DNA from: Methanococcoides vulcani
GTDB taxonomy: Archaea > Halobacteriota > Methanosarcinia > Methanosarcinales > Methanosarcinaceae
Assembly: GCF_900111645.1 (NCBI RefSeq)
Contig: NZ_FOHQ01000001.1
Span: forward strand, 1-64,000
Direction of reading: 5' to 3'
Length of the DNA stretch: 64,000 bases
Made by a program: the position numbers and the translations under genes. Shown here piece after piece: positions 7,048-16,938 of this stretch. Numbering within the stretch: position 1 is the stretch's first letter; every line of letters begins with the position of its first letter. Under the pieces are notes generated by a model. The model was not told where the DNA came from, did no database searches, and saw only the letters and a program-made list of their open reading frames with translations.

Positions 7048-7122
7048 GCCTCGGTGGCTTATGGGTATAGCGCGTTCTTGGTAAGGACGAGGTCGCGGTT
7101 TCAAATCCCGCCCGAGGCTCCA
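7048..7122 (+). tRNA. tRNA-Thr (anticodon GGT), CCA encoded
   Basis: Acceptor GCCTCGG (7048-7054) pairs fully with CCGAGGC (7112-7118); discriminator T7119 is followed by an encoded CCA. The anticodon arm is CGTTC-TTGGTAA-GGACG, giving anticodon GGT for Thr. The T-arm is GCGGT-TTCAAAT-CCCGC: the normally near-invariant G53-C61 pair is replaced by a T-C mismatch. Otherwise the cloverleaf is regular (72 nt without CCA). Confidence 0.85.
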
Positions 7123-10467: not shown

Positions 10468-10589
10468 GCCCCCTCTCCCTTTCTCCATTTATCCGTATGT
10501 AGGATCTTCTTATTCTGACCTGGGCAAAAACCACTGATACAACATAAATAATAGTTGAGTATGTTATTCATATTAGTGGGAGTGGAATT

Positions 10590-11279
10590 TTGAAAATAAG
10601 GGATATTAGAAGCAAGGACATTTCAAATACAATATCTGTTGAAGGTGAAGTTTCAACCATAAATGAAATTCGTCCTAAATTGAAAACTGCTGCTTATATG
10701 TGTAATATTTGTGAAGGAATTGTGTGTTTACCAGTAGAAGGATCTGAAATTGGGAAACCGGTACATTGTGAAAATGAAAGTTGCGGTAAAAGATCTGATT
10801 TTATTCATTTGGAAGATAAATCTTCAAAGACTGATTCTCAGCAAATCGAGATCAAGGAATTGGATAATATTTGTGATCCAAGGTCATTGATCGTTCATTT
10901 GGAAGGGGATTTGGTGGATACTATAAAAATTGAAGATAAGATTGTTGTAATCGGGGTACTAAAAGCACACTTCCAATCAACATCTACTACGGGTGATTTT
11001 GTTTTAGAAGCTAACTCAGTTGAAAAAATGAAAGAGAAGAAAGTGGTTAGCGATAATAAAGAGGGAACAGACTCAAGTGGAGAAATACAGATCATACGTG
11101 AAATAATTGACCAGCTCAGATTATCTTCCCCTTCCGATAAAGTTTTACTTGAAGATATTTACCGGGAAGCTTCAAATTTACATATTGGACGAGAACGTGC
11201 TGAAAAGTATATTGCAAAACTTAGACGCCAGGGTTGTGCATATTTACCGGATGAGAAACATTTAAGAGCTCTTTGGTGA
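10590..11279 (+). CDS. MCM-like OB-fold / zinc-finger / winged-helix protein lacking the AAA+ domain
   Basis: The 229-aa protein matches the N-terminal half of the archaeal MCM helicase: IRDIRSKDISNTISVEGEV and NEIRPKLKTAAY lead into a zinc site (CNICEG...CENESCG) within an OB fold (to ~150). The last ~65 residues (IIREIIDQL... to the C-terminus) resemble the MCM C-terminal winged helix. The whole ATPase module between them is missing and no Walker motifs exist. The start is TTG at 10590 after a GGGAGTGGAAT leader. It could bind single-stranded DNA or modulate the true MCM; function is inferred only. Confidence 0.75.
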   Translation: MKIRDIRSKDISNTISVEGEVSTINEIRPKLKTAAYMCNICEGIVCLPVEGSEIGKPVHCENESCGKRSDFIHLEDKSSKTDSQQIEIKELDNICDPRSLIVHLEGDLVDTIKIEDKIVVIGVLKAHFQSTSTTGDFVLEANSVEKMKEKKVVSDNKEGTDSSGEIQIIREIIDQLRLSSPSDKVLLEDIYREASNLHIGRERAEKYIAKLRRQGCAYLPDEKHLRALW

Positions 11280-11643
11280 TCTGGTTCAAATGTTGACCAC
11301 ACCTTTTTCATTTTTTATAAAAATATCAGGTCTTCCCTCTCTTCTACCGCCTGTTCATGATGTTTGCCATACATTTGTCACTGCAACACAGCATAAGACG
11401 AGAACTTTTTCTTCCGCATCTGCAACGTTGCAGGACGACCCGACCCCTGCAACATAGTTGCTTTCATTGTCGGTTTTCCGCTTAATATTCTGGTTCTGCA
11501 GAATCCTTCATGTAAACCAAACACGTGACCTTGACACACATTTCAGGATCATGTATCCGACAGCCAATTAGGCTGAAGCAATAAAATTATATCATTTGTT
11601 ATAATTATTTATTATATAAGTTTAAATTCGGGGTGGGAACAAA
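11280..11643. other. Intergenic region with repeat copy 1 and a promoter
   Basis: Besides repeat copy 1 it holds an AT-rich stretch at 11583-11625 containing TTATTATATAAG, a good TATA box for the membrane-protein gene at 11644. No other gene is apparent. Confidence 0.5.
11376..11483 (-). repeat. Decayed Cys-rich repeat, copy 1
   Basis: About 108 bases nearly identical in the core to 12726-12835, including GCATAAGACGAGAACTT, the palindrome CTGCAACGTTGCAG and TTGCTTTCATT. Read on the minus strand, copy 1 gives CRCGRKSSRLMLCCSDKCM followed soon by a stop, a zinc-finger-like C-terminus. No start or complete gene is present. Confidence 0.65.
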
Positions 11644-12410: not shown

Positions 12411-12820
12411 CCAGAGCTGTTTTCCCAATTATTCTTTCATTATGTTATACCGACTTTCATTCGCCGGGATGGTTTTGGCACCGACTATCCGGAAACCACA
12501 GGGGAGAGTGGAAATTATCTATCTGATGAAAGCAATACTTCACTGAATGGATTCACTGCATTTTTTGCATTGCTATGATCGCATTAGCATTCCTGATAAA
12601 AAAATAAGATGGTCTTAAGTTGCCATAGGCCCCTTTTAACCATTTTTCCTTGACCATTCCATAGTGATCAAAGCAAACTCGTGAAGTTAACAATATGCTC
12701 ATTGAGGCACAGGTTACCGTGCTTCTGTCATTACAACGCAGCATAAGACGAGAACTTCTTCTTTCGTATCTGCAACGTTGCAGGACGACTCAACCCCCTG
12801 CAACAAGGTTGCTTTCATTC
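12411..12820. other. Non-coding stretch with repeat copy 2
   Basis: No intact gene. It contains the start of repeat copy 2 (from 12726). Minus-strand frames here continue the repeat's Cys/Arg-rich reading (SSRLMLRCNDR) but have neither a complete domain nor a ribosome site. Confidence 0.45.
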
Positions 12821-12835
12821 TCATTCTTCCGCTTT
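12726..12835 (-). repeat. Decayed Cys-rich repeat, copy 2
   Basis: Shares GCATAAGACGAGAACTT, ATCTGCAACGTTGCAGGACG and TTGCTTTCATT with copy 1, with scattered substitutions. The minus-strand reading CRYERRSSRLMLRCND has lost two of the Cys present in copy 1, which supports decay rather than selection on the peptide. Confidence 0.65.
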
Positions 12836-13030
12836 AGTTCTTCTTGCTTCCAGCAGGTAGATTGTCCCGATCGTTGCAAATCCCACTGTAATCAAAAGCA
12901 ATGGAATAGTCTTCGATGAACTTACACTCCTTCCTAAAATAGAGCTTAAATTGTATATTAGCAACAAAGAAATTGCAACTAATGAAATGATAATTGCTTT
13001 CACGTTTTTGTCTTGTATGATGATCACCAC
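12821..13030 (-). CDS. 69-aa small membrane protein
   Basis: Two hydrophobic helices (about 11-27, AIIISLVAISLLLIYNLS, and 42-59, IPLLLITVGFATIGTIYLL) are separated by a Ser-rich loop; the C-terminus is charged (EARRTKAEE). Start would be GTG at 13030 or the next GTG. It overlaps the end of repeat copy 2. Family unknown; plausible but short. Confidence 0.45.
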   Translation of the reverse strand: MVIIIQDKNVKAIIISLVAISLLLIYNLSSILGRSVSSSKTIPLLLITVGFATIGTIYLLEARRTKAEE

Positions 13031-13395: not shown

Positions 13396-13467
13396 AGTCT
13401 CTTAGGTAGCGGTCAATCATTCAGGCTTTTGGAGCCTGGGGCCCCGATTCGAATTCGGACGGGACTA
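13396..13467 (+). tRNA. tRNA-Gln (anticodon TTG), atypical and possibly decayed
   Basis: The 72-nt sequence folds with acceptor AGTCTCT against CGGGACT (six pairs of seven, one a T-G wobble, pair 7-66 mismatched), a perfect anticodon stem CAGGC/GCCTG with loop TTTTGGA (anticodon TTG), and a T-arm CCCGA-TTCGAAT-TCGGA whose outer pair is mismatched and whose normal G53-C61 is A-T. No CCA is encoded. It could be functional or a displaced copy left by integration. The AT-rich NUDIX/helicase pair starts 150 bases downstream, as expected for an island next to a tRNA 3' end. Confidence 0.6.
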
Positions 13468-13616: not shown

Positions 13617-14012
13617 ATGAAGCACTATGAAGTAGTTGCAGCAATAATCATGGATGATGATAAAGTTCTATGTGTTCAAAGAGATCATGGAAAATATGAT
13701 TACATTTCTTTAAAATATGAATTTCCAGGTGGAAAAATAGAGCCTTCTGAATCTAAAGAACAAGCATTAGAACGCGAATTATTAGAGGAACTCGATCTGA
13801 ACATAGAAATTGAGAGGGAGTTTCTAACTGTAAATCATCAGTATCCTGATTTTAGTGTTACTATGCACAGTTTCATTTGCAGTGCTTTAAATTCAACATT
13901 GAATCTGAAAGAACACATTGCGTTCAAATGGTTAAATCCAGAAAATTTATCAATTTTGGATTGGGCTGAAGCAGATCTTCCAATTGTCTCAAAATTAATG
14001 AAGGAATGTTAA
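13617..14012 (+). CDS. NUDIX hydrolase (MutT-like), paired with a helicase
   Basis: The 131-aa protein contains the Nudix box GGKIEPSESKEQALERELLE ending EELDLNI, with the metal-binding REllEE core, in a MutT-like frame (VVAAIIMDDDKVLCVQRD). MutT relatives hydrolyse nucleoside triphosphates or other nucleotide derivatives. The stop is one base before the ATG of the PLD/helicase gene, so the two are co-translated. Both genes are visibly more AT-rich than the flanks. The partner and setting suggest a defence role rather than housekeeping sanitation; this is inference. Confidence 0.9.
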   Translation: MKHYEVVAAIIMDDDKVLCVQRDHGKYDYISLKYEFPGGKIEPSESKEQALERELLEELDLNIEIEREFLTVNHQYPDFSVTMHSFICSALNSTLNLKEHIAFKWLNPENLSILDWAEADLPIVSKLMKEC

Positions 14013-14013
14013 A

Positions 14014-16938
14014 ATGGATAACTTTCCTGTATCTTTATTAGATAGCTTGAAAACTGGCTTTATTGATCAGTCCTTAACTTCAAAAAAAGAGTACCTCCCA
14101 GAGTTACTAGTAAATGATTCAGATAATGGCAAAAAAGTACTACAGACCATATCTAGAGAACTAAAAAATTGTGATGAATTTTGGTTTTCAGTAGCATTTG
14201 CAACAAAAAGTGGTGTAACTAGTTTAATTAATTCATTCCAAGAACTTGAAAACAATGGGATTAATGGAAAAGTATTGGTGTCTCAATATCAATATTTCAC
14301 TCAGCCAGAAGCATTGAGGTCTTTATCAAAGTTTAAAAATATTGACTTAAAAATAGCAGTAAATTGTGATTTTCATGCGAAGGGGTATCTATTCAAAAAA
14401 AGCAATAGATATGACTTGATTATTGGGAGTAGCAATCTTACAGCTAATGCATTATGCTCAAATAAAGAGTGGAACTTAAAAATTTCAGCTACTTGCGACT
14501 CTAAATTGATAGCTGATTCTATTAACGAATTTAGAAATGAATTTGAAAATGCAGTATTGGTAGATGATAAATTCATTGATTCTTATGCATTAGATTATAA
14601 TTTGAAAAAGAAGTTCATTTCAAGTTCAAGAAACAGCATTGAATCTCTTCACAATGATTCAATAACTCCTAATACAATGCAAATTGAAGCATTGGCAAAC
14701 CTGAAAGATTTAAGATCAAATAATAAAGATAAGGCTTTATTAATTTCTGCAACTGGTACAGGGAAAACATATCTGTCTGCATTTGATGTAAAAGCATATA
14801 ATCCGAAAAAGTTTTTATTTGTAGTACATCGAAGAAACATTGCAGAAAATGCTATGAAAAGCTTCAAAAAGATTTTTGGCGATAGTCGAAGCATGGGCAT
14901 TTACTCAGGAAATGAGAGAGAAATTGATGCTGATTTTATATTTTCGACTATTCAAACGATTTCTAGAGATGAACATTTAACTAAATTTAATCAAAGACAT
15001 TTTGATTACATCGTTATAGATGAAACCCACAGAGCAGGAGCAGAAAGCTATCAAAAAATCCTCAATCATTTTAAACCAGAATTTCTGTTAGGTATGACTG
15101 CTACTCCTGAAAGGACAGATGGTTTTGACATCTTTTCTCAATTTGAACACAATATTGCATACGAAATACGTTTGCATAGAGCTTTAGAAGAAAAAATGTT
15201 ATCGACTTTTCATTATTTTGGTGTAACTGATGTTACGGTAGATTATCAAGTTTTAGAGGAGGATGCAGCTTTTTCTTTGTTAACAGCAAAAGAACGTGTA
15301 GATAGGATCATTGAAAAAGCTGAATTTTATGGCTGTGACAATGGCTGTGTGAGAGGACTTATCTTTTGTAGCAGTGTAGCTGAAAGTCAGGGATTGTCTG
15401 ATGCATTTAATGAAAGGGGATACAAGACAATTTCATTATCTGGCAAAAATAGTGAGGAAGAGAGAATTGATGCAATAAACAGATTGGAAAGTTATGTTCC
15501 TTCTGAAAAATTAGATTATATCTTTACGGTTGATATCTTCAATGAGGGAGTGGATATTCCAAAAGTAAATCAAATTATTATGTTGAGACCCACTGCATCA
15601 GCCATTATTTTTGTACAGCAATTAGGAAGAGGATTGCGTAAAGCTAACGACAAAGAATACCTTACTGTGATTGATTTCATAGGCAATTACAATAATAGTT
15701 ACTTAGTCCCAATTGCGTTATACGGAGACACTACTTACAACAAGGACACATTGCGTAAATTGATGTTAAGCGGAAGCAGTTTAATTCCGGGTGCTTCAAC
15801 TATTAATTTCGATAAAATTACGCATGACAGGATTTTTGCAGCAATTGACAAAGCGAATTTACATCTCAAAAAAGACCTTGTAAAAGATTACGAGCTCTTA
15901 AAATTCAAGATCGGCAGTATTCCTATGATGATGGATTTTGTCGAACACGGTTCTCGAGATCCACAATTGTATGTAAACTATTCAAAATCGTATTTTAATT
16001 TTGTATCAAGTCAAGAGGAATCATTGCAAAATAAACTATCTGAAAAGGAAACCAAGCTCCTCGAGTTGTTCTCTAGTGAAATTGCAAACACAAAAAGGGT
16101 CGAAGAAGTTCTTATTCTTAAAAAATTGATTTCTGGAAGTATTCTGCTAAAGGAAGAATTTAAAGCAATTGTTTTTGATAGATATGGAATTTCGCTTTCT
16201 GATGAAACAATAGAATCGTGTATCAAAAATATCAATTTTGAATTTGTAACTAAAAAACACAATGGTAATCTAGTTAGTGTTAGGAAAATATATGATTTAA
16301 ATATCATTTCTTATACAAACGAAGTGATCACATTTAATGATGAATTTATAGATTTACTTAAAAATGGGAACTTCTTGCGTTTTCTAAATGATATGCTGAA
16401 CTATTCCGAAACAATTTATGATAGAAATTTTGACAAAAATAAATATGTTGATGGATTCCTATTGTATCAGAAATATTCCCGGAAAGATGTTTTTAGAATT
16501 CTGAATAGGGAGCAGAATCCTTTAGCACAGAATGTTGGTGGTTATCTTATTAGTCCTCAAAAGACAAATTGTCCAATATTCGTAAACTATCACAAAGAAG
16601 AACATATCTCGAGCACTACGAAATATGAAGAGGGCTTTGTCAATAACTCTGAATTTGAATGGATGTCTAAATCTAGAAGAAAACTGGATAGTGATGACGT
16701 TACTACTATCAGAAATTACAGAAACGGACTTAGGTTGCTTTTATTCGTCAAAAAAAGTAATGGCGAAAGTAACGATTTCTACTATATGGGTGATGTGACT
16801 CCCATTGATGAAAGCTTCGAAGAAGCTACTTTGGTTGATGATGATAATAAAAACGTTTCAGTTGTAAAAGTAAGGTATAGGATGAATCATCCTGTTGAAG
16901 ATTCGATTTACGAGTACATTACAGCACCAAGTGATTAA
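14014..16938 (+). CDS. PLD-nuclease / DExH helicase / DUF3427-type protein, candidate defence effector
   Basis: The 974-aa protein has an N-terminal phospholipase-D nuclease-like domain with one HxKx4D-like site (HAKGYLFKKSNRYD, then IIGSSNLTANAL; ~125-150). A superfamily II helicase follows: ATGTGKT (~247), VVHRRN, DETHRAG (~339), GMTATPERTDG, IFCSS, and motif VI QLGRGLRK (~540). The C-terminal ~300 residues correspond to the region called DUF3427 in such proteins. This architecture is found in bacterial and archaeal defence islands. It is coupled to the upstream NUDIX gene, with no methylase or specificity subunit nearby. The frame is intact and looks functional. Confidence 0.88.
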   Translation: MDNFPVSLLDSLKTGFIDQSLTSKKEYLPELLVNDSDNGKKVLQTISRELKNCDEFWFSVAFATKSGVTSLINSFQELENNGINGKVLVSQYQYFTQPEALRSLSKFKNIDLKIAVNCDFHAKGYLFKKSNRYDLIIGSSNLTANALCSNKEWNLKISATCDSKLIADSINEFRNEFENAVLVDDKFIDSYALDYNLKKKFISSSRNSIESLHNDSITPNTMQIEALANLKDLRSNNKDKALLISATGTGKTYLSAFDVKAYNPKKFLFVVHRRNIAENAMKSFKKIFGDSRSMGIYSGNEREIDADFIFSTIQTISRDEHLTKFNQRHFDYIVIDETHRAGAESYQKILNHFKPEFLLGMTATPERTDGFDIFSQFEHNIAYEIRLHRALEEKMLSTFHYFGVTDVTVDYQVLEEDAAFSLLTAKERVDRIIEKAEFYGCDNGCVRGLIFCSSVAESQGLSDAFNERGYKTISLSGKNSEEERIDAINRLESYVPSEKLDYIFTVDIFNEGVDIPKVNQIIMLRPTASAIIFVQQLGRGLRKANDKEYLTVIDFIGNYNNSYLVPIALYGDTTYNKDTLRKLMLSGSSLIPGASTINFDKITHDRIFAAIDKANLHLKKDLVKDYELLKFKIGSIPMMMDFVEHGSRDPQLYVNYSKSYFNFVSSQEESLQNKLSEKETKLLELFSSEIANTKRVEEVLILKKLISGSILLKEEFKAIVFDRYGISLSDETIESCIKNINFEFVTKKHNGNLVSVRKIYDLNIISYTNEVITFNDEFIDLLKNGNFLRFLNDMLNYSETIYDRNFDKNKYVDGFLLYQKYSRKDVFRILNREQNPLAQNVGGYLISPQKTNCPIFVNYHKEEHISSTTKYEEGFVNNSEFEWMSKSRRKLDSDDVTTIRNYRNGLRLLLFVKKSNGESNDFYYMGDVTPIDESFEEATLVDDDNKNVSVVKVRYRMNHPVEDSIYEYITAPSD

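Follow-up and report, generated by a model that had tools for sequence, protein, structure and literature searches.

A motorless MCM derivative, MCM-lite, in Methanococcoides vulcani and other Methanosarcinaceae, with a possible role as accessory to the resident MCM

Described MCM variants and the layout of MCM-lite

The archaeal MCM is a model for the eukaryotic replicative helicase, and to our knowledge only a small number of proteins are known to regulate how it assembles. Within MCM, the allosteric communication loop (ACL) signals to the motor. Second genes derived from MCM, often linked to mobile elements, are found in other archaea and include MCM2 of M. kandleri, the two dispensable MCMs of T. 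kodakarensis and the MCMs of Methanococcales; as far as described, these paralogues retain the AAA+ module (PMC3972481, PMC3984812). The gene presented here, which we call MCM-lite, is likewise a second MCM-derived gene, but the AAA+ module has been wholly removed from it. Searches of the open literature turned up multiple and inactive archaeal MCMs and no helicase-less one; what appears new here is the motorless variant made of an OB fold and a winged helix (WH). MCM-lite is a real accessory family of Methanosarcinaceae that has apparently gone undescribed so far.

The window, by which we mean the whole stretch of DNA analyzed, consists of the first 64,000 nucleotides of contig NZ_FOHQ01000001.1 of Methanococcoides vulcani. 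The following features, all on the forward strand, define the gene and its product:

10543..10554 (+): putative TATA-like CATAAATAATAG, kept 5' of the relatives' genes; read from the sequence
10578..10582 (+): Shine-Dalgarno-like GGGAG, 7 nt 5' of the TTG; read from the sequence and relatives
10590..11279 (+): MCM-lite gene, 229 aa, TTG start; domain matches and purifying selection
10593..11036 (+): MCM OB fold with inserted zinc ribbon, residues 2-149; Pfam MCM_OB, 42% identity to own MCM, structure Z 18 to the PfMCM N-domain
10665..10832 (+): zinc ribbon segment, residues 26-81, with Cys38, 41, 60 and 65; deleted in frame in G093, G095 and G099
10857..10886 (+): remnant of the ACL, beta7-beta8, about 4-5 residues shorter and without the ESPESLKGG signature; alignment
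10962..10997 (+): beta9-beta10 hairpin, about 4 residues shorter, tip without basic residues; alignment
11037..11072 (+): disordered linker, residues 150-161, site of the AAA+ motor in full MCM; block of pLDDT 34
11073..11276 (+): archaeal MCM WH, residues 162-229; WH of own MCM, family profile and model helices

MCM-lite is a genuine MCM OB/zinc and winged-helix protein that has neither subdomain A nor an AAA+ motor. Pfam MCM_OB matched residues 2-126 (E 4.3e-21), while MCM_WH_arc gave a weak match to residues 168-226 (E 0.046) that lies under the model's cut-off. The 707-aa MCM of the same genome, encoded on a different contig, matched MCM-lite twice, once over the OB part (residues 2-149, 42% identity, E 1e-28) and once over the WH (residues 163-227, 38% identity, E 4e-10), and its motor region, between the two, was unmatched. 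A profile built from the MCM-lite family found the WH of full MCMs with E values of about 1e-17 to 1e-21, so the presence of the archaeal C-terminal WH is established by the own-MCM match and the family profile, the Pfam model alone being sub-threshold. No AAA+ match was obtained in Pfam, NCBIfam or PHROGs, and the motor, with its Walker A/B motifs and arginine finger, is missing; the matches in NCBIfam and PHROGs were portions of full-length MCM models only. The frame starts at the OB fold, without the N-terminal helical subdomain A, and since it measures 243 aa from stop to stop it has no space for this subdomain. The solved structures nearest in sequence belong to MCM N-domains; for the C-terminal part there was a weak match (E 0.01) to 2m45, an archaeal MCM winged helix solved by NMR. 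A preliminary description of this DNA had proposed an OB/zinc protein with a C-terminal WH and no helicase, and the Pfam result, the double match to the own MCM and the lack of any AAA+ match bear it out.

When set against the N-domains of PfMCM and MtMCM and the archaeal WH, MCM-lite shows clear homology, with the same OB fold carrying a four-cysteine zinc ribbon and the same WH, but it is without subdomain A, AAA+, the ACL and the residues that bind ssDNA, and a linker of about 12 residues joins OB to WH. RPA32 and small OB + WH proteins have a similar layout but gave no sequence match, and the OB and WH of MCM-lite are those of MCM. Another comparison is offered by a helicase-less MCM head of the Halorussus type (L050, L051; G318, G407), which likewise has OB/Zn without AAA+ but retains subdomain A, has no WH and belongs to a haloarchaeal lineage separate from MCM-lite. 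This head, of 240-260 aa, was seen on Halorussus plasmids (L050:2713-3450, L051:2713-3447), where it adjoins a PadR-family gene, and in two haloarchaeal genomes (G318:C5, G407:C1; L121, L122); it is a second, differently cut helicase-less MCM.

Predicted structure, DNA-binding elements and selection

Two AlphaFold2 runs were made. The first used six near relatives, reached a mean pLDDT of 50 and was excluded from all claims on the fold, while the second, to which four viral MCM-OB segments were added as rows, reached a mean pLDDT of 79. In the comparison with archaeal MCM that the preliminary description had called for, modelled residues 1-148 matched MCM N-domains with Z scores of 17-18 (4ywl, Z 18.1, rmsd 2.0; 4me3, Z 17.4, rmsd 1.5; 1ltl, rmsd 2.3). 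Because MCM rows had been supplied, we regard the modelled OB fold as consistent with the sequence matches and not as fully independent proof. The linker (150-161) is disordered in the model and residues 162-213 form three winged-helix helices, the WH being a confident module in both models. Matches to the OB domain took up the whole list from the fold search; the structural matches thus concern the OB, and the WH is supported by sequence and the model helices.

Alignment with the resident MCMs revealed that the elements that grip DNA and couple it to the motor are gone in all or nearly all copies (ACL, MSSB, basic hairpin), with the OB core retained. The ESPE-LKGG loop, whose function has been studied in MCM (PMC3972481, PMC3970758) and in which Haloferax MCM does not tolerate short deletions (PMC3972481), is absent from the MCM-lite copies. 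In the beta9-beta10 hairpin, HQRTLREGK of the own MCM is replaced (HFQST, STTG), which removes the basic residues and, in Methanococcoides, also about 4 positions. The MSSB positions R124 and R186 of PfMCM, whose double mutant binds ssDNA 25-fold more weakly (PMC3970758), align with T23 and E87 of the window protein; the copy at L038 retains one Arg, and in the own full MCM the two positions are occupied by Lys and Gln, respectively. The loss speaks only against the MCM mode of ssDNA binding. The net charge is about -7 for the OB of MCM-lite and near zero or negative for the WH in most copies, and the WH sequence differs between copies. The expectation that the protein keeps the DNA-binding head and tail of MCM thus stands for the OB fold, the cysteines and the WH and fails for the MSSB basic residues, the basic hairpin and the ACL; with these residues gone and the OB kept, the fold of the head is retained and its known DNA grip is not. 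The zinc part of the head is present in the window copy and is absent in three sister species.

In these three species (G093, G095, G099) the protein is 167 residues long: exactly the zinc ribbon (26-81) has been deleted in frame, leaving the OB strands and the WH, and the last residues are also gone. In Haloferax MCM the four zinc cysteines cannot be replaced (PMC3972481); the loss of the ribbon here therefore indicates that the pressure on MCM-lite differs from that on the helicase. It also shows that MCM-lite can do without this part of the surface used in MCM assembly. Pairwise dN/dS among MCM-lite genes was 0.19-0.57, with bootstrap upper bounds below 1 in all eight pairs tested. Purifying selection was strongest within the zinc-less trio (mutual dN/dS 0.19-0.28, bootstrap 0.08-0.54). 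The WH gave higher values than the OB part and exceeded 1 in one pair.

Distribution, origin and possible function

We searched 112 Methanosarcinaceae genomes for the OB and the WH in one frame of 180-270 aa. Twelve copies were found in 10 of the 112 genomes, distributed over three genera: Methanococcoides (g1), with the window genome, G093, G095, G096 and G097 (two copies each), G098 and G099; genus g10, with G115 and G116; and genus g13, with G163. Three Methanococcoides genomes (G091, G092, G094) are without it. The co-occurrence search suggested in the preliminary description was thereby carried out, and a full-length MCM accompanies MCM-lite in every carrier. No further MCM-lite stood out among the matches listed for 393 genomes drawn from the phylum, a listing that distant members could have escaped. 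Because its presence is this sporadic, no essential role is to be expected, and because relatives in three genera have open frames and dN/dS is below 1, MCM-lite is not a chance ORF.

In the trees, the G163 copy groups with the MCM of g13 (OB 100/100, WH 94/96), and for the WH of G116 the best tree gives a grouping with the MCM of that genus, with support that is uneven between data sets (95/96 vs 63/96). In three of four OB comparisons, the MCM of Methanococcoides is the top-scoring one for the Methanococcoides copies. AU tests did not reject a single clade of all copies (p 0.20-0.38), and with this clade left standing and long branches in play a recurrent origin is likely only and not demonstrated. 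The simplest reading of these comparisons seems to be that MCM-lite was carved repeatedly from the resident MCM.

The MCM-lite loci are accessory regions. GC3 of the gene is 0.245 vs 0.429 for the own MCM, which suggests an island gene and not a core replication gene. The window copy lies in an AT-rich variable stretch between tRNA-Thr (7048-7122) and tRNA-Gln (13396-13467), and in G163 a type III restriction-modification operon is near.

Our best guess is that MCM-lite would be a partner of MCM with a regulatory or dominant-negative effect, as had been proposed from the first. We tentatively read it, with somewhat less than even confidence, as a motorless accessory derivative whose target in trans would be the resident MCM or the MCM loader. 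The resident MCM, once stripped of its AAA+ motor and of subdomain A, would leave an OB/zinc body and a WH; with these, MCM-lite would offer the resident MCM or the loader the surfaces that an MCM subunit has, and the predicted contact may dampen or redirect helicase assembly, with either an inhibitory or a recruiting outcome. A role through protein contact is preferred to movement along DNA because motor, coupling loop and known ssDNA grip are all missing, which leaves the protein unable to hydrolyze ATP or to couple to a motor, and because two MCM-derived surfaces, kin to the resident MCM, are under selection. Speaking against the partner role are the dispensable zinc ribbon of three species, the sporadic presence, the low GC3 and the WH dN/dS values, which are higher than those of the OB part. 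Deletion of the WH from SsoMCM raises unwinding 15-fold (PMC4619765), and for this reason we take the WH to be a regulatory module of MCM. The wider proposal, that Methanosarcinaceae repeatedly carve a motorless MCM from their own helicase and retain it to control the loading or activity of MCM in trans, the OB core and WH of the zinc-less form being sufficient, is one we consider rather doubtful.

Other explanations have to be weighed against this partner role. It is unlikely, in our view, that MCM-lite serves an integrated element by delivering MCM or the loader of the host to that element's origin, or by favoring its replication. Such a helper would suit the AT-rich variable region between the two tRNA genes, and in G095 and G099 the gene is flanked by a histidine kinase gene on one side and tRNA-Gln on the other, an interval that in G092 is empty of it. 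G116 also has a phage-type integrase about 4 kb from MCM-lite and a DDE transposase nearby, and its copy and that of G163 have an accessory neighbor family of 409 aa in common. However, scans of viral contigs gave no match to the family, the matches in phage and plasmid records cover only the OB part and lie mostly within full-length MCMs, and no integrase, att pair or origin was identified beside the window copy. The earlier idea of replication control by a mobile element is supported only indirectly, by the variable tRNA-flanked region and the integrase near one relative. A stand-alone nucleic-acid binder of the RPA32 or small-SSB kind, unconnected with MCM and working in repair or island defense, is quite unlikely: the OB-Zn-WH layout recalls RPA32-type proteins and a defense-like pair of NUDIX and DUF3427 helicase genes lies 2.3 kb from the window copy, but the MSSB and hairpin basic residues are gone, the OB is acidic as given above, and HMMER found no Pfam SSB or RPA family at E values up to 1.

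We hold it very unlikely that the MCM tail became a winged-helix transcription regulator with the OB as a dimerization or ligand body. The confident modelling of the WH and its variation between copies would agree with such a regulator, whereas its mostly neutral or negative charge and its closeness to the MCM WH instead of regulator families speak against it. Least probable is a functionless, decaying MCM fragment; the sporadic distribution, the long branches and the loss of the ribbon and last residues in three species might be expected of decay, but all 12 frames are open, indels within the frame come in multiples of three, and the dN/dS bounds disfavor it. Should the partner role be true, an archaeal regulator would be built from its target's own subunit. 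MCM-lite lets one ask whether cells or mobile elements control MCM using MCM pieces. Its forms with and without the zinc ribbon are a natural reagent for the roles of the OB body and WH apart from the motor.

Neighboring sequences

Several other sequences were noted near the MCM-lite genes. The NUDIX and PLD/SF2 helicase/DUF3427 pair (window 13617-16938) is scored by PADLOC as PDC-S07 and type IV mREase; 7 of 11 Methanococcoides genomes have it, with DNA identities of 87-92%. The 409-aa family (L076:10677-11903, L075:8215-9673), which has no Pfam or PHROG match, adjoins MCM-lite in two genera, is broken in G163 and is also found on plasmid pMETHO01; we rejected it as a partner of MCM-lite, since most of the 31 genomes, out of 112, in which it occurs have no MCM-lite, and it is missing from the window genome. 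A direct repeat of about 120 nt, 85% identical (window 11364-11483 and 12714-12834), brackets a 208-aa ORF immediately 3' of MCM-lite, and weaker copies occur elsewhere in the genus. A downstream stretch of 161 nt was rejected as a conserved element, its fold barely beating shuffles (z -1.6) and its sequence being mostly shared flank and dispersed repeat. A hydrophobic protein of 69 aa (window 12824-13030, reverse strand) has no Pfam match, and its homologs are near six other Methanococcoides loci (L039, L040, L041, L045, L078, L079). Lastly, repeated short ORFs with MGFSKGTLHYMKQNA...NAHVKERLENW near the MCM-lite copies at L036, L043 and L045 gave no Pfam match; they look like a repeated gene, by eye Cas1-like, that has broken up into degenerate pieces.
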